53,012 nucleotides of DNA from a virus. Of this stretch, positions 10,384-42,256 are shown piece by piece (positions within the stretch are counted from its first letter, which is position 1; every line of letters begins with the position of its first letter). Both the position numbers and the translations under genes were made by a program. The stretch spans positions 1 to 53,012 of IMG/VR virus record IMGVR_UViG_3300033571_011269; one strand, written 5' to 3'. Under the pieces are notes generated by a model. It worked only from the letters and a program-made list of their open reading frames with translations, made no database searches and was not told the origin of the DNA.

Positions 10384-10845
10384 TCAGTCGGCAGCCTTGG
10401 CCGCCCGTAGTGCAGCCGCAAGTTGGACAGTCAGGGCGGCGGTGTCAACCCCGCCCTCCACTTTGAGGGCCTCGCCCTCGCGGTTGCCGATCGAGAGCTG
10501 CTGCTTGTCGCCGTAGCGGGAGGGGTCGAGGTGCGCGATCGTCTTGAGGCGCAGATCAGTGCGCAGCTTCTGCCACGCCACGTAGCCCGCGTCGATGCGG
10601 CCCGCGGCACGCTCGGGGCGCTGGTCAGCGATGTCGATGATCTCGTCGGCGAGAGCCTCCGCGCCCATCTTGCGCGCGTCGTCATAGCGCGCGGCGAACT
10701 CCTCGTCCTGCTTGCGCCAGCGCATGATCGTGATGCGTGCGGGCATGCCCTTGACGCGGCACAGGCTCGACAGGGTCTGGCCCGACGCGATGCGGGTCAG
10801 GATCATGTCCTCGATCTCTTCGGTGCGGGTGGTTGGTGCTGCCAT
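10384..10845 (-). CDS. terS: Terminase small subunit (Sf6/P22-like)
   Basis: Residues EEIEDMILTRIASGQTLSSL followed by CRVKGMPARITIMRWRKQDEEF form a helix-turn-helix of the kind used to bind the packaging site; the remainder is helical (oligomerisation) with the family's LDPSRYGDKQQ. About 153 residues from the ATG at 10845, chosen because MAAPTTRTEE is a typical start. An in-frame ATG at 10917 has AGGTG in front and would add 24 Arg/Pro-containing residues, so the start is uncertain. It is the first gene of the late operon, immediately downstream of the iteron region. Confidence 0.85.
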   Translation of the reverse strand: MAAPTTRTEEIEDMILTRIASGQTLSSLCRVKGMPARITIMRWRKQDEEFAARYDDARKMGAEALADEIIDIADQRPERAAGRIDAGYVAWQKLRTDLRLKTIAHLDPSRYGDKQQLSIGNREGEALKVEGGVDTAALTVQLAAALRAAKAAD

Positions 10846-10942
10846 GCGGCGGGGTATACGCCGTTCGAGGGGCGCTGTCAAAAGACTCGCGCACAAGTCT
10901 GGGACGCAAACTTTCATTACTTCACCTGCAAGTGGCCGTTAC

Positions 10943-11206
10943 ACTTGCAGCATTAGCAGCAGCATTAGCAGCAGCATTTGCAGCATTTGCAGCGGCTAGA
11001 GGGGGTGCGCACCATTTGCAGCAGCATTTGCAGCATCATTTGCAGCAGGGCTGGGTACCCCCTATGGGGGTATCCCCTAGCGCCGTGCTGCAAAAGTTGC
11101 GTTTGCCAGAAATACATCATTTGCACCATTTAGATTATGCTGCAAATGCTGCATACTTAAAAATCAAGCACTTACGGCAAGCCCCTAAATGCTGCAAATG
11201 CTGCAT
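10943..11206. repeat. Iteron cluster in both orientations, candidate replication origin/operator
   Basis: Positions 10846-11223 carry no gene. GCAGCATTTGCAGCAT occurs at 10971-10986 and again exactly 50 bases later at 11021-11036. Its reverse complement occurs inside two identical 18-bp copies, ATGCTGCAAATGCTGCAT, at 11137-11154 and 52 bases later at 11189-11206. Degenerate partial copies (GCAGCATTA, TTGCAGCA, GTGCTGCAAAA) lie between. The segment 11100-11215 is clearly A/T-richer than its surroundings, resembling an unwinding element. Directly repeated sites about five helical turns apart plus inverted sites suggest initiator or regulator binding. Origin function is inference. Confidence 0.7.
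11056..11072. promoter_or_regulatory. G/C palindrome in the middle of the iteron cluster
   Basis: TACCCCC (11056-11062) and GGGGGTA (11066-11072) form a perfect 7-bp inverted repeat around TAT, followed by a half repeat GTATCCCC. It separates forward-oriented from reverse-oriented iterons. It could be a protein-binding site or a cruciform within an origin; no function can be read directly. Confidence 0.5.
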
Positions 11207-11223
11207 CCTTACAATTCAGCGGG

Positions 11224-11748
11224 TTACTCGAAGAATATCACCCTGTCGCCCACGAGCCGCAGCGGCCCGCCCTTTTCTCGGCTCAGGTTGTACAGCGCAC
11301 GCGCCACCACTTGTCTGCGCGTGTCTCGTTTGCCTTTCGCCGGAGCATCCAACATGCCTGTCGCGCGTTCGATCAGCTCGGCTGCCGGAACCACAGTGTC
11401 GGTAAACGTGTGCATCGCTTCGATGATGCGCGTTTCGATCCGCCCACGCCGCTTGACCGCGGGCGCGCCGACGCCGCTCTCGGGCGCGACATAATCGTGC
11501 CGATCGTACCGTTCCGATGCACAGAACGGGCAATTCTCGATCAACCCCTTCGGGTGCGTCGGGCTGTGCTGGTAGAACTCCGTGCCGCACGCAGCACAGT
11601 TGCTCCTCCATACAAGGCCCATCGGCTTCGACGTGTCGCCGTCGCTCCATAACTGCGTCGCCGCGACTATGAACGTCTGCGCGCCGCTGCGCACGATCGT
11701 CCCGGGTTTCGCGCCTCGCGGGTGGTCTCTTGTAAACTCCTCGAACAT
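11224..11748 (-). CDS. Zinc-finger protein sharing its C-terminal module with the phage primase-helicase
   Basis: 174 residues from the ATG at 11748 (AGGAG eight bases upstream). The N-terminal half holds a four-cysteine zinc site, Cys51/Cys54 and Cys73/Cys76. The C-terminal about 78 residues (AVKRRGRIETRIIEAM to the terminal RVIFFE) are nearly the same as the end of the primase-helicase encoded at 20774-22771, including GKRDTRRQ and NLSREK, and the DNA is also highly similar, so a duplication is clear. The module looks like a winged-helix DNA binder (inference). The gene ends 18 bases from the iterons, suggesting that it binds them as initiator accessory or regulator. Confidence 0.75.
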   Translation of the reverse strand: MFEEFTRDHPRGAKPGTIVRSGAQTFIVAATQLWSDGDTSKPMGLVWRSNCAACGTEFYQHSPTHPKGLIENCPFCASERYDRHDYVAPESGVGAPAVKRRGRIETRIIEAMHTFTDTVVPAAELIERATGMLDAPAKGKRDTRRQVVARALYNLSREKGGPLRLVGDRVIFFE

Positions 11749-11782
11749 GGCTGTCTCCTTGTGTTGAGCCGACGGCACAAGT

Positions 11783-11794
11783 GCAACATGTTGC
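11783..11794. promoter_or_regulatory. Perfect 12-bp palindrome in the divergent promoter region
   Basis: GCAACATGTTGC lies between the divergent starts at 11748 (minus) and 11890 (plus). A second TTGCAA follows at 11800-11805. It is well placed to act as an operator controlling both directions. Binding partner unknown. Confidence 0.45.
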
Positions 11795-11825
11795 GCCGTG
11801 TTGCAATAGCTAAAATATCTTTCAA

Positions 11826-11889
11826 TCACCGCTTGCAATGCTCTGCGAATCGGCTAGGAGAGGTCATCAGCAACGAAAGGACGACCGAC
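11826..11889 (+). promoter_or_regulatory. Early leader element, copy 1
   Basis: TCAATCACCGCTTGCAA dyad with TTGCAA at 11833-11838, 15-base spacer, CTAGGAG box, then TCATCAGCAAC and the ribosome-binding stretch before the ATG at 11890. The same order recurs at six other operon starts. The TTGCAA and CTAGGA boxes occupy -35/-10-like positions, so a promoter is the simplest reading. Confidence 0.7.
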
Positions 11890-12276
11890 ATGACCATCAT
11901 CAAGCCCATCCGCGCATTCGATACCTTCCACACCAACATCGACGATCTGCCCGAGGGCGACTACGTCACCCAGACCGGCTACACCGACAAGCACCCGTGG
12001 AAGGTCATCGCGTCGACGGCCACCACCCTCACCATCCAAGAGGTGCTGACCGAGCGCGATCCGTCGTGGAAGCCTGAGATCATCCCCGGCGGCTTCGCGG
12101 GCCACTGCACCAATCAGGACGAGCAGCGCCACCGCTACGTCGGCCTGAGCGATCGCACTGCCAAGATCCGCCTGCGCAAGAGCCGCTACTGCGGCAGCGA
12201 CAAGCTGTGGGCCAACCCGATGCTGGGCGAGTTCATCGCCAACGGCGCCGTTGAGTTCTACGACTACAACTTCTGA
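11890..12276 (+). CDS. Conserved phage protein of unknown function, first early gene (128 aa)
   Basis: First gene of the rightward arm. The start at 11890 was chosen because it follows the shared leader; upstream in-frame starts lie inside the promoter. The protein has a short N-terminal extension, then GDYVTQTGYTDKHPWKVIAS, a central PEIIPGGFAGHCTNQDEQRH and the C-terminal EFYDYNF. This pattern recurs in small phage proteins that adopt an all-beta fold. No catalytic residues or membrane segments. Being first after the divergent control region suggests strong early expression. Confidence 0.7.
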   Translation: MTIIKPIRAFDTFHTNIDDLPEGDYVTQTGYTDKHPWKVIASTATTLTIQEVLTERDPSWKPEIIPGGFAGHCTNQDEQRHRYVGLSDRTAKIRLRKSRYCGSDKLWANPMLGEFIANGAVEFYDYNF

Positions 12277-18321: not shown

Positions 18322-19028
18322 CACAGACGATTGAACAAATCCTTGCCCGCTGGGATAGCGGCGACGGCAAGCCCTACAAGGGTTCGCTGATCGACTGGAA
18401 GGCATACAAAGCAGACCCTGAGAATATGGGTTGCATGTGTGCGCAGGGACAAGTGCTGGCGCTGGCCGGTGGCTGGGACTACGCCAAGCTGCGCGACACG
18501 GCGCAATCGACAGCGGACATTGCAACCGCCAAGCTGCTCAACATCAGCCGCGCCCATGCGGTCTTGCTGCGCCAGATCAACGATAAAGCCGATGGCGCAC
18601 CGTCGATTGTGTTGACCGATCCGGGCAAGGTGCTGGGCGATCAGTGGAGCAAGTTGCTCGACTTCTGGTGGCTGTTCCATAATTACAGCGCGGCGGATTG
18701 GCGAAAAGTGGACGCCGCTTGGGACACCGCTAGGGCCACCGCTTGGGCCGCCCCTAGGAAAGCTGCTAGGGCCACCGCTTGGTACGCTGCTTGGTACGCC
18801 GCTTGGGACGCCGCTGGGGACGCCGCTTGGTACGCTGCTGGGGCCGCCGCTGGGGACGCCGCTGGGGACGCCGCTGGGGACGCCGCTTGGGAAATCCAAG
18901 GCTACAACCTGCTAATCGAGCGCGGTAACAAGCCGTTCTTCCTGCCTATGTTCGGCCTCGCCACGCCTGCGGACATCCCTGCTCGCCCTGCCGATTACGG
19001 CAACGGCATAGTGCCAAAGGGAGATTGA
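18318..19028 (+). CDS. Repeat-rich early protein with Ala-Ala-Trp/Gly-Asp tetrapeptide array (236 aa)
   Basis: The N-terminal about 130 residues form a folded-looking domain (IEQILARWDSGDGKPYKGSL, MGCMCAQGQVLALAGGWDYA, LLDFWWLFHNYSAADW). Residues about 133-193 are a degenerate four-residue repeat built on A-A-[WG]-[DYA], then a C-terminal segment with IERGNKPFFLPMFGL. The repeat is coded by a 12-bp unit. Such Ala/Trp tetrad helices occur in several phage proteins of unknown role. Start at 18318 by ATGA overlap. Confidence 0.7.
   Translation: MTQTIEQILARWDSGDGKPYKGSLIDWKAYKADPENMGCMCAQGQVLALAGGWDYAKLRDTAQSTADIATAKLLNISRAHAVLLRQINDKADGAPSIVLTDPGKVLGDQWSKLLDFWWLFHNYSAADWRKVDAAWDTARATAWAAPRKAARATAWYAAWYAAWDAAGDAAWYAAGAAAGDAAGDAAGDAAWEIQGYNLLIERGNKPFFLPMFGLATPADIPARPADYGNGIVPKGD
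18711..18893 (+). repeat. 12-bp tandem repeat array inside a coding region
   Basis: About 15 degenerate copies of a unit close to GCCGCTTGGGAC, with the T/G alternation TGGGAC versus GGGGAC switching Trp and Gly codons. Length variation by slippage in multiples of 12 keeps the reading frame, so the protein could vary in repeat number between isolates. Confidence 0.8.
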
Positions 19029-20751: not shown

Positions 20752-20773
20752 TCTCTGGCCTAGGGTGGTGGCC

Positions 20774-22771
20774 GTGAGCAACGTGGTTCCTCTATTCCCT
20801 CCTCTGGGAGACGTGCGCGTGCCCGAGCCGCTGCGTCAGCTGCACGCATGGTGCGTGTGGCGCTTTGAGCAGTTCGACGGTGAAGTGAAGCCGCGCAAGA
20901 TGCCCTACTGGGCCGATGGCGGAAAGCGGCACGGCGAGCAAGGCGGTACCACCGATCGCGCGCGGCTGGTGACATTCGAAGAGGCGCGCGAGGCGGCCAT
21001 ACGCGGCAACTACGCGGGCATCGGCTTCGCGCCCCTGCCCGAGCTAGGCCTGACCTTCCTCGACTTCGACAACTGCGTCGACGCACATGGCCGCATCCCG
21101 CCTGAGATCATGGCGATCGTCGGGCGCACCTACGCCGAGTACAGCCCAAGCGGCAAGGGCATCCGCGCCGTGCTCAAGGGCGATCTGGGCAACCGCAAGA
21201 GCCACGGCGAGCCGTACGGCGTCGAGCTGTTCAGTAGCAAGGGCTACGTCACCCTCACAGGCAACATCCTGCCCGAGTGCGATCTGCTGGGCGGCCCCGA
21301 TCACATTGCCAATGTGGACGACGCCACGCGTGCCTTCGTGGAGGCGCGCTTCGGCGCGCATGCAGGCACTGTTGATCCCGACAACTTCATGCTGGGACGC
21401 GAGCCGCGTCTGGGCCTGTCGATCGCAGAGATGGAGGATCTGCTCTCCTACCTCGACCCGTCGATGGGCCGCGAACCGTGGCTGAAGGTGGGCCTCGCCC
21501 TGCACCACGAGACATGCGGCGACGACACTGGCTTCGAGCTGTGGGACACGTGGTCGAGTGACGGTAACACGTACCCGGGTGACGAGTTGCTGCGCAGCCA
21601 GTGGGATCGCTTCGAGCAGCGCGCAGGCCGCGCGTCGGTGACGATGGCCACGGTCAAGTGGATGGCCAAGGAGGCGGGCTTCGGCAAAGAGCTTACAGCC
21701 GAGCAGGTGCTGGCCTTGGCCGATGATCTGCAGGCGAGCATGGATAGCAGCCGCTTTGCGCTCCTGTCCTACAGCGAGGTCATGGCGCGCGACCCCGGTG
21801 AGTGGATCATCAAGGGCGTGCTGCCGAAGGGTGAGCTTGGCATCCTGTTCGGTGCCTCGGGCAGTGGCAAGAGCTTCGTGGCCCTCGACATGGCCTGCGC
21901 GATCGTGCGCGGCGTCGCGTGGCGCGGAAAGCGCGTAAAGCAGGGCAAGGTTGTCATCATAGCCGCGGAAGGCGGGGCTGGCATCCGCCAGCGCCTAAAG
22001 GCCTACGCCGCGCACCACGGCCTGACAGCGGCTGAGCTGGCCGATATCCGCATCGTGCTGGCCGCCCCCAATTTTCTCGAACAGGACGACATCGCCGAGG
22101 TCATAGCCGAGATCCGCAAGTTCGGCGACGTCTCGACAATCATCATCGACACCCTCGCACAGGTCACCCCCGGCGCGAACGAGAACGCGTCCGAGGACAT
22201 GGGCCGCGCGCTTGGCAACGTGAAGCTCTTGCATCGCGCGACGGGCGCCATGCCGCTTGTCGTCCACCACGCTGGCAAGGATCTCAGCAAGGGGTCGCGC
22301 GGCTGGTCGGGCCTGAAAGCCGCGGCTGACGTACAGATCGAGGTGCTTCGGCACGAGGACGGGCACCGCGAAATTGTCATCGAGAAGATGAAGGACGGCG
22401 AGGACGGCCTGCGCTGGCCGTTCAAGCTCGAGGTGGTCGATCTGGGCTTCGACAGCGACGGCGACCCGATCAGCAGCTGCGTCGCGATCGAGACCGACGC
22501 ACCGGCGCGGCAGGACGCAGAGCTTAGCAAGGCGGTCAAGCGGCGTGGGCGGATCGAGAGCCACATTCTGGAGGTGATGTACACCTTCGGCGAGGTCGAC
22601 ACGGTCAGCGCGCTTGAGCTGATCGAGCGCGCCACGGCCATGCTGCCAGAGCCGGAAGAGGGCAAGCGCGACACGCGCAGGCAGACGGTCGCGCGTGCGC
22701 TGCACAACCTGAGCCGCGAGAAGGACGGGCCGCTGCAGCTGGCGGGCGGACGTGTTATTTTCTTCGAATAG
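20774..22771 (+). CDS. Primase-helicase: Prim-Pol/PriCT-like N-terminus, RepA/RecA-type helicase, winged-helix-like C-terminus
   Basis: About 665 residues from a GTG at 20774 (AGGG eight bases upstream; GTGs at 20765 and 20768 are alternatives). The N-terminal part has the Prim-Pol-like LTFLDFDN acidic motif (about 97-100), SPSGKGIR and VELFSSKGYVTLTG. A PriCT-2-like segment follows (DPSMGREPWLKVGLALHHET). The RecA-like ATPase has Walker A GASGSGKS at 360-367, Walker B STIIIDT at about 454-460 and VVHHAGKD. The C-terminal 78 residues are duplicated in the zinc-finger gene at 11224-11748. Role: primer synthesis and unwinding at the origin. Confidence 0.85.
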   Translation: MSNVVPLFPPLGDVRVPEPLRQLHAWCVWRFEQFDGEVKPRKMPYWADGGKRHGEQGGTTDRARLVTFEEAREAAIRGNYAGIGFAPLPELGLTFLDFDNCVDAHGRIPPEIMAIVGRTYAEYSPSGKGIRAVLKGDLGNRKSHGEPYGVELFSSKGYVTLTGNILPECDLLGGPDHIANVDDATRAFVEARFGAHAGTVDPDNFMLGREPRLGLSIAEMEDLLSYLDPSMGREPWLKVGLALHHETCGDDTGFELWDTWSSDGNTYPGDELLRSQWDRFEQRAGRASVTMATVKWMAKEAGFGKELTAEQVLALADDLQASMDSSRFALLSYSEVMARDPGEWIIKGVLPKGELGILFGASGSGKSFVALDMACAIVRGVAWRGKRVKQGKVVIIAAEGGAGIRQRLKAYAAHHGLTAAELADIRIVLAAPNFLEQDDIAEVIAEIRKFGDVSTIIIDTLAQVTPGANENASEDMGRALGNVKLLHRATGAMPLVVHHAGKDLSKGSRGWSGLKAAADVQIEVLRHEDGHREIVIEKMKDGEDGLRWPFKLEVVDLGFDSDGDPISSCVAIETDAPARQDAELSKAVKRRGRIESHILEVMYTFGEVDTVSALELIERATAMLPEPEEGKRDTRRQTVARALHNLSREKDGPLQLAGGRVIFFE

Positions 22772-40161: not shown

Positions 40162-42023
40162 TACGCGAGGCCTCCTTGGAGATACTGTTCAGGCTGCTTG
40201 GCGTCGTGGCTGAAGCCACCCTTAGCGAGTTGGGCGCCCTTGTGCTTGCGGATGTTCACACGGAACGCGTCAAGGCGATCCGCGCCAGCCTCGGTCGAAC
40301 CGTCGCCGAGCAGGGCCACGGTCTCTGCGTCAATGACGTACTCGCCGTCGCTGAGCAAGGCGGGGATGTCGTCGCTGCGGCCCGTGCCGGGGCCGTCGAC
40401 GGCGAACGATTCGCCGCCAACCTCACCGCCCTCGGCGTAGCCGGTGTAGGCTTGGCTGGTGTTGGGTTGGCCTTGCGGGACGTAGTTGAAGAAGCTCTGG
40501 CTGGGGCCGTAGCCGTACCGCGTCCAGTCCTGATTGACAGGGCGCGGCGCGAAGTTGTCAGCGGCTCCCGGCATAGTAGGCGCGCCAAGACTACCACCGA
40601 AACCGGAGCCGAGGCCGCCACCCAAGCCCCCGGGGATGACGCCGTTGGTCTGGCGACCACCGCCCTCGAGCAGGCTGCCTATGGTGCCGATGCCGAGGCC
40701 TGCGAGGCGGAGATAATCCACAAGGTCTAGGTTGTCGAAGATGCCGTCGCCTTTCGGCTTCTGCGGCGTCTGCAGGCCGTTGGCCGTACCACCGGCTGTC
40801 GTCGGGATCGACCCGATCGGGGGCAGCGGAACAGCGAGCGGGTCGTTGACCGGCGGGTTGGGCCTGTCTTGCACGACGATTTCGTTCAAGTTGCCCGAAG
40901 TGTCGTAGCCAAGGCCCGCGCCAGCTGCGCCTGCCGCACCCGCAGGGTTCACCGGCGGAGGTGTGGTTCCGGTGAGCACAAGATCACCTTGCTCGTTGCG
41001 GTAGGGCCCACTCTGGTTTTGGGCAGACGTGCCGCCGAAATCGGTAAGCGCGCCACCTGCGGCAGAGCCAAGGCCCGCGCCAAGCGCCGTACCCAGACCA
41101 GTACCCGCAGCGTTGCCCAGCACCGTGATGCCGCCGAGACCAGCGGCGTTGAGGCCCGCCTGAGCCATCGGCGTCGCGCCCGCGACACTACCGGCAACGC
41201 TTCCGCCGACCCCACCGCTGGGTGACGCGCCGAGAAAGGGCGCGCCGCCGACAGCAGACAGGCCGCCTGCCGCAACGCCAGAGAGGCCCGCGCGCAGCAG
41301 CGTGTCTTTCAGCGATCGGCCCTGCGCCACGCTGGAGAGAGCGGAACCACCCGCTGAGCCGAGACCAGCGCCAAGGGCACCGCCCAGAACACCCCCGACG
41401 CCGGGGAGCAAGAACGCGCCAGCGACGGGCAAAGCGACGTCTAAGACCCCGCCCAACTGATCCATGAGGGTGGTGGGGTTGTTTTCGCCTACGCGCTCCC
41501 ACTGCCCGGTCGCCGGGTCGAGACGCTCGACGCCCCAATTGGCGCCCTTCCCAGACATGTTGAGTTTTGAGGCAGCGTTTCGCACGCCCATAAGCCCCTC
41601 AAGGCCCGTGCCTTCAGCCACGACGCTGTTCCCACCACGCTCGTCGGTGAGGCGGTACTGCGCATTTGGATCGGCTGCGATAAAACCGCTGGCAGTATCG
41701 CCGAGGCCCGCGGAGTGCCGCCAGCCGCGTTCATCGTTGAGATAGACGCCCTGCTGGCCGTCTCGGGTAGCCAGACCCGTTGGCGTTAAACCGTAATACG
41801 CACCCACCTCGGGGCTGATTGTTCGCCCCGCAGCGCCGGGTGCTGTACTCAAAATAGACCCCAATGCTTCCGATGTGAGGCCGTCGGGAAACATATCTGA
41901 AAGACTGGGCGCTGCCATAATCGGCGGTGCGGACGGACGGATCGAGGGCAACTGCCCGACAAAGGCAGGGCCGCCACGCTCTTGAGACATAAGGGACGGC
42001 GAGAAGCCGGGAACGTACACCAT
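40161..42023 (-). CDS. Internal virion protein with glycine-zipper region and conserved C-terminal module (620 aa)
   Basis: ATG at 42023 (GAGGAT ten bases upstream). Residues about 195-345 are glycine/alanine-rich with membrane-active glycine zippers (GVGGVLGGALGAGLGSAGG). The C-terminal module, about 535-620, has GYAEGGEVGGESFAVDGPGT, RSDDIPALLSDGEYVIDAET and ends EQYLQGGLA; the SDGEYVID unit is common in podovirus internal virion or tape-measure-like proteins. Likely part of the channel or core ejected with DNA. Confidence 0.7.
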   Translation of the reverse strand: MVYVPGFSPSLMSQERGGPAFVGQLPSIRPSAPPIMAAPSLSDMFPDGLTSEALGSILSTAPGAAGRTISPEVGAYYGLTPTGLATRDGQQGVYLNDERGWRHSAGLGDTASGFIAADPNAQYRLTDERGGNSVVAEGTGLEGLMGVRNAASKLNMSGKGANWGVERLDPATGQWERVGENNPTTLMDQLGGVLDVALPVAGAFLLPGVGGVLGGALGAGLGSAGGSALSSVAQGRSLKDTLLRAGLSGVAAGGLSAVGGAPFLGASPSGGVGGSVAGSVAGATPMAQAGLNAAGLGGITVLGNAAGTGLGTALGAGLGSAAGGALTDFGGTSAQNQSGPYRNEQGDLVLTGTTPPPVNPAGAAGAAGAGLGYDTSGNLNEIVVQDRPNPPVNDPLAVPLPPIGSIPTTAGGTANGLQTPQKPKGDGIFDNLDLVDYLRLAGLGIGTIGSLLEGGGRQTNGVIPGGLGGGLGSGFGGSLGAPTMPGAADNFAPRPVNQDWTRYGYGPSQSFFNYVPQGQPNTSQAYTGYAEGGEVGGESFAVDGPGTGRSDDIPALLSDGEYVIDAETVALLGDGSTEAGADRLDAFRVNIRKHKGAQLAKGGFSHDAKQPEQYLQGGLA

Positions 42024-42256
42024 CAACCTCTATCCTCAAGCATCGGATACACGCGCATGGCCCAGTCGCGCCAGTCCGAAAACGTAGAAGGATCAGGAAG
42101 GGTGCGCTGCGTAAAAGGCGACGCGCGTACTACCCCAATAGCCCAATCTTGCCACTTGGTCTCCTCGGGAGGTGTCCCGAACGACCAAGCATCGCCGACA
42201 GCCAGTATAGTCGAAGACGCCCAGTCTTGCCAAGACATTCCTCGCGGATCGATCAT
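42023..42256 (-). CDS. Small protein with three WxDWA repeats (77 aa)
   Basis: ATG at 42256 overlaps the endonuclease stop. WQDWA at residues 9-13 and 35-39 and WRDWA at 62-66 mark three repeats of about 26 residues, each followed by a hydrophobic strand or helix. A peptide with evenly spaced aromatic DWA units looks like a structural linker between internal protein and tail hub. No family name known to me. Confidence 0.65.
   Translation of the reverse strand: MIDPRGMSWQDWASSTILAVGDAWSFGTPPEETKWQDWAIGVVRASPFTQRTLPDPSTFSDWRDWAMRVYPMLEDRG

Follow-up and report, generated by a model that had tools for sequence, protein, structure and literature searches.

Background

Recognition of iterons by the C-terminal domain of a helicase has been described for the SaPI/PICI Rep proteins (PMC7581432, PMC6092414) and for the alpha protein of the satellite phage P4 (PMC4234260). 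In SaPI/PICI, the C-terminal domain of Rep (Pri-Rep) reads short iterons that form two sets around a centre, a primase is sometimes fused to the helicase, and the origin normally lies just 3' of the helicase gene, whereas P4 alpha joins primase, helicase, and an origin-binding winged helix in a single chain. The isolated C-terminal domain of the SCCmec initiator helicase Cch2 binds to short repeats that lie downstream of the helicase's operon (PMC7581432). RSF1010 oriV (RepA, RepB', RepC) combines a RepA helicase and a primase with iterons that have hairpins close by, and has iteron binding and unwinding divided between RepC and RepA (PMC4234260); the single-strand initiation hairpins of RSF1010/IncQ are recognised by the primase. 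The pRN1 protein ORF904 also unites primase, helicase, and winged helix, and its origin lies behind the gene and has a stem-loop of variable sequence, but its helicase is of the SF3 type and iterons are absent (PMC4234260). A partial initiator bound to origin DNA is a known restraint on initiation: in pIGRK, RepR', a truncated relative of the initiator RepR, binds origin DNA and represses replication (PMC6854812). AEP-PriCT_2 fusions are a known family (PMC5862659), for which an incomplete literature search found no description of an iteron origin.

We analysed a complete virus record of 53,012 bp (the window), in which late genes run leftward and early and replication genes run rightward. We read the array at 10943–11204 as the iteron origin of this phage, probably bound by the C-terminal domain of its primase-helicase, with a neighbouring zinc-finger protein as an optional regulator, and place the probability of this reading at roughly 0.75 on the basis of sequence comparison. 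So read, array and helicase work like SaPI/PICI Rep-ori, P4 alpha, and RSF1010, yet belong to none of them, because of differences in the family of the helicase, the type of primase, the arrangement of the genes, or the position of the origin. SaPI/PICI Rep proper is a helicase of the SF3/AAA+ Rep family, whereas the protein here has a RepA/AAA_25 helicase and a PriCT_2 primase part and is carried by whole tailed phages; the proposed origin lies not immediately 3' of the helicase gene but about 9.6 kb away, and its centre is a GC-rich palindrome. Cch2 is a different helicase, its primase is a separate complex, and it does not belong to a phage (PMC7581432). P4 alpha has a Toprim-type primase and another helicase type; no Toprim match was found in the 20765–22771 protein, where PriCT_2 is present. 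RSF1010/IncQ uses three separate proteins in place of one chain. A palindrome, which might serve as a priming site, is present here. The original prediction knew of no phage system of this form; the principle of a helicase-read iteron origin is in fact known, and what is different here is its presence in whole tailed phages.

Structure of the array

The relevant features of the window are listed below.

10384–10845, minus strand: terminase small subunit gene (terS), Sf6-type (PF20901, E 1.7e-29), start of the leftward late operon
10943–11204, no strand: iteron array, proposed replication origin from repeat counts and from position and layout kept in relatives
10943–11047, plus strand: left arm of about seven units (TTTGCAGCA / TTAGCAGCA), on the plus strand only
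11056–11072, no strand: central 17-bp palindrome TACCCCCTATGGGGGTA, its place kept and its sequence variable in relatives
11086–11204, minus strand: right arm, units largely on the minus strand, within the AT-rich half
11224–11748, minus strand: gene whose product, a proposed regulator, joins a zinc finger (CxxC...CxxC) to a C-terminal winged helix that is a copy of the helicase's
11776–11810, no strand: a second, small group of TGCAACA-type sites, where the zinc-finger gene and the early operon start
11833–11875, plus strand: first of seven early-gene promoter-like repeats (TTGCAA, 17 nt, CTAGGA, then leader GTCATCAGCAACG)
20765–22771, plus strand: primase (PriCT_2), RepA-type helicase (AAA_25), and winged-helix protein; proposed initiator
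22508–22768, plus strand: winged-helix C-terminal domain of the helicase, with recognition helix RDTRRQTVARALHNL

The non-coding stretch between the start of terS (about 10845) and the gene at 11224–11748 measures 378 bp (10846–11223), as originally predicted, and is AT-rich in its right half only (39–44% GC at 11080–11239). Exact copies of the 16-mer GCAGCATTTGCAGCAT lie at 10971 and 11021 on the plus strand, 50 apart, and at 11137 and 11189 on the minus strand, 52 apart, so that the direct pair, the inverted pair, and the palindrome between them were all recovered as first described; the four copies are, however, only the best of about a dozen units. With up to three mismatches, GCAGCATTTGCAGCAT gave 11 matches in the 53-kb window, every one within 10947–11204 (shuffle control: mean 0.75, maximum 3), and ATTTGCAGCA with up to one mismatch gave 13, 12 of them in the array (shuffle mean 2.6, maximum 6). 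Units of the TTTGCAGCA type number at least 11 (about a dozen) in 10943–11204 and are almost absent from the rest of the window; none of 100 shuffles gave anything comparable. Several short repeats are clustered here at a single non-coding site. Around the palindrome centre at 11064, left-arm units face right and most right-arm units face left, with six plus and no minus TGCANC sites to the left and two plus and five minus to the right. A further small TGCA cluster at 11782–11806, upstream of the zinc-finger gene, had been overlooked in the original prediction.

The palindrome signal was moderate across relatives (16 of 90 arrays, compared with 2.9% of the control pieces), and the best hairpin had no clear advantage over shuffles in half of the arrays tested. 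The palindrome was not called as an intrinsic terminator, the T-run being absent. No sigma-70 consensus promoters were found in 10840–11960. The cumulative GC skew peaks locally near 11 kb and is lowest near 18 kb, which is the reverse of a simple bidirectional origin at about 11 kb and gives the array position no support. The strongest repeat signal of the window is at 18651–18950, but these tandem repeats are coding and lie within a reading frame for a WYAAWDAAGDAAW-type protein. A promoter-like repeat is common to seven early genes (11862, 12337, 13550, 15419, 16572, 17621, and 22807, plus strand) and has the form TTGCAA/T, about 17 nt, CTAGGA/CTAAGA, then a leader like GTCATCAGCAACGGAG. 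It is present also in three relatives (L012, L013, and L033), and its TTGCAA is similar to the iteron core.

Primase-helicase

Primase, helicase, and winged helix form one chain of 668 amino acids, with PriCT_2 (E 7e-16) and AAA_25 (E 1.9e-40) domains. The C-terminal domain was modelled as a winged helix with three helices and a two-strand wing, a core pLDDT above 90, and RDTRRQ starting the recognition helix. Fold matches of this domain were mostly winged helices, none with an E value below 0.001, and a PDB sequence search with its profile returned no significant match.

Close relatives

Near DNA relatives of the window were not found among named phages, while searches with the helicase yielded 57 virus contigs, some of them incomplete. 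Many of these carry a TGCA[AG]CA / TGCANC array between terS and the early genes, with differing flanking sequence. A search for module and iteron layout in related phages, which had been proposed as a check, found the layout conserved: in all 10 phages measured, the inner inverted pair lies about 22–31 bp to the left and 18–23 bp to the right of the palindrome centre. In nine phages (the window, L012, L016, L019, L030, L032, L037, L048, and L049), the RDTRRQ/RDIRRH module is carried by a gene of its own between terS and the early genes, beside the array. Many others have the array and no neighbouring module gene (L013, L015, L024, L033, L034, L039–L046, L050, L052, L056, and L058).

These patterns bear on the idea that initiation takes two steps, both required, in which the zinc-finger protein marks the origin as RSF1010 RepC does and then loads the helicase. 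The recognition helix common to the two proteins and the division of labour between RepC and RepA (PMC4234260) speak for such an arrangement, but relatives with the same array and helicase have no such protein beside the array, and among the phages that do have it, the N-terminal half is different or missing in L012 and L048. We regard it as highly improbable that the zinc-finger protein is a required loading partner; the proposal that one protein targets and the other loads was not borne out. Because many array phages have no adjoining zinc-finger/winged-helix gene, this protein cannot be the general partner of the array, which does not depend on it, and the partner common to them would be the helicase.

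No TGCA array was found in the incomplete contigs L061 and L018, which encode RDTRRQ/RDIRRQ-type helicases, and no convincing one in L054 or Caulobacter phage RW. L061 (1007–2128, minus strand) and L054 (612–1745, minus strand) carry a second gene for a RepA-type helicase where the array would lie; its product is about 375 amino acids long and has a C-terminal helix of its own. A GC-rich hairpin adjoins terS in these two contigs. GTGACAC iterons occur in L053, together with a different helix. The terminase and helicase genes of L062 (G030 40673–42123) are broken by TGA codons or frameshifts; sequencing errors in the contig or recoding in the phage may be responsible.

Covariation in distant relatives

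Queries with divergent helicases added more loci, from both viruses and prophages. About 90 distant loci were examined, and in most of them the array comes straight after the helicase stop codon, the position normal for SaPI/PICI origins; distinct relatives with this layout number about 55. In the window, no array was present within 350 bp after the helicase gene. L119, whose helicase is about 42% identical to the helicase family of the window, has an RDTRRQ helix and TGCAAC iterons, and its array lies behind the helicase gene between convergent genes.

Partial Mantel analysis of 56 loci with distinct domains gave a correlation of 0.38 between iteron and domain given the helicase core (0 of 999 permutations) and of −0.04 between iteron and core given the domain, although linkage of domain and iteron, which are neighbours in most relatives, could exaggerate their association. 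Histidine after RDTR[KR]Q was accompanied by GGTGCA in 16/16 loci and another residue (R/K/Q/L) by GTTGCA in 28/29, such that one recognition-helix position predicted one iteron base in 44/45 loci (table of residue and base 16/0 vs 1/28; Fisher 2.6e-11, without correction for kinship). In a tree built from the helicase minus its C-terminal domain, the helix residue changes at least eight times, and the iteron base changes in the same way in six of six independent switches with tree support (sign test p 0.031); a first, shorter tree had three supported independent pairs, and the longer core gave the six. This one-residue rule holds for the helicase-adjacent group and not for the TerS-located group, which includes the window and in which Ser/Thr helices pair with TGCAGC, TGCAAC, or TGCACC. 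Other helices were found with GCTACA (L113), GGGGCA (L131), GAAGCA (L137, L138, and L153), and CCTTCA (L217, L218, and L256) iterons, and TCCCGA iterons also occur with another helix type. The helicases of L113 (1577–3550) and L114 (10001–11971) are near-identical in their N-terminal halves, their C-termini cannot be aligned, and the iterons have changed to match, which looks like a natural cassette exchange.

The same pair weighs against the array being a pac/cos site for packaging, to which the terminase small subunit encoded next to it would bind. That explanation draws on the array's position immediately upstream of terS in both the window and its close relatives, on L131, where the array is between the helicase and a TerS of a different type, and on Caulobacter phage RW (L066/L067, MK929790.1), whose record carries an exact terminal repeat of 2,940 bp with its end in the intergenic region between late and early genes, the counterpart of the array's location. 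In L113 and L114, however, 57 of 60 residues of the TerS N-terminal region are identical and yet the iterons differ, so the element does not follow TerS; terS is more than 1 kb away, and it is the helicase C-terminal domains that cannot be aligned. The TerS of L053 is as near to that of the window (41%) as are those of array-sharing phages (34–42%), and its iterons are nonetheless different. Since the array also directly follows the helicase gene in most of the distant loci, we consider a packaging site very unlikely.

The helicase C-terminal domain alone accounts for the iteron type across distant relatives, and we conclude from these comparisons that the general partner of the array is, by prediction, the winged-helix C-terminal domain of the primase-helicase. 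Because the helicase tail and the repeats change together across relatives, the array is most likely a replication start read by that tail; array conservation and domain-iteron covariation support the candidate origin of the original prediction. In the proposed mechanism, the winged-helix domain would bind TGCAGC units, the two opposed groups of sites would position a pair of helicase assemblies about the central palindrome, the AT-rich half of the array would open, and the fused primase would begin new strands. Origins cannot be located in most tailed phages known only from sequence, and a helicase recognition helix that predicts origin sequence would allow them to be found and tested across a sizeable group of uncultured phages and prophages. 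Natural matched domain-iteron pairs, including the near-sisters L231 and L233, allow direct tests of how a replicative helicase achieves its specificity.

Zinc-finger protein

The 11224–11748 product (174 amino acids) carries a CxxC...CxxC motif, and its last 78 or so residues share 71% identity with the helicase C-terminus (73% at the DNA level); the predicted fusion of a four-cysteine finger to the helicase module was thus present, with the zinc ribbon falling under the Pfam cut-off (E 0.013). Both proteins carry the recognition helix RDTRRQxVARAL and therefore probably read the same sites, in line with the original prediction. A homologue in L016, which came from the helicase-based loci, is 42% identical in its zinc-finger half. 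The winged helices of the window and L016 proteins are 71% and 69% identical to that of their own helicase and 46% to each other. Being nearer to their own helicase than to each other, they suggest that the module tracks the helicase of its genome through repeated domain transfer or matching, as would be expected if both proteins must read the same sites.

P4 CNR is a small partner protein of alpha, as the zinc-finger protein may be here, and is an example of a partial initiator that restrains initiation by binding origin DNA; it is not known to carry a zinc finger or a copy of the alpha recognition helix. pIGRK RepR' arises by in-frame truncation of a single gene, whereas here the gene is a distinct one and its product has a zinc-finger half in addition. 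The zinc-finger protein would probably compete with or join the helicase on array sites, and could be an optional regulator of copy number or timing, as are P4 CNR and pIGRK RepR'. We give close to even odds that it is an optional regulator carrying a copy of the initiator's DNA-binding domain; a duplicated domain beside the origin suggests a way for a phage to control replication. A more specific version, which we hold to be possible though rather unlikely, is a decoy initiator: the copy of the helicase origin-binding domain, matched by repeated intragenomic transfer, would occupy the origin late in infection and so shift this DNA from replication to late transcription or packaging. If so, the wider family would be a readable code in which one helicase residue sets one origin base.

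The array could instead be an operator through which the zinc-finger winged-helix protein controls divergent late and early promoters, with replication starting elsewhere. In the window and its close relatives it does lie between leftward late and rightward early genes, TGCA sites occur at the zinc-finger gene's own start, and the early promoter-like repeats carry TTGCAA. Arrays nevertheless persist where the zinc-finger gene is absent, distant arrays lie behind the helicase gene and in L119 between convergent genes, where one would not expect a promoter, and iterons covary with the helicase domain; an operator in place of an origin seems improbable. An additional regulatory role of the array in the window is quite possible, because the array is between late and early promoters, TGCA sites mark the zinc-finger start, and TTGCAA recurs in the seven repeats, and the protein may act also on the promoters flanking the array.

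An exact-pattern scan with the zinc-finger protein found no relatives, and searching it against named phages returned helicase C-termini only. When the whole zinc-finger model was compared with the PDB, sensible matches came from the winged-helix half only.
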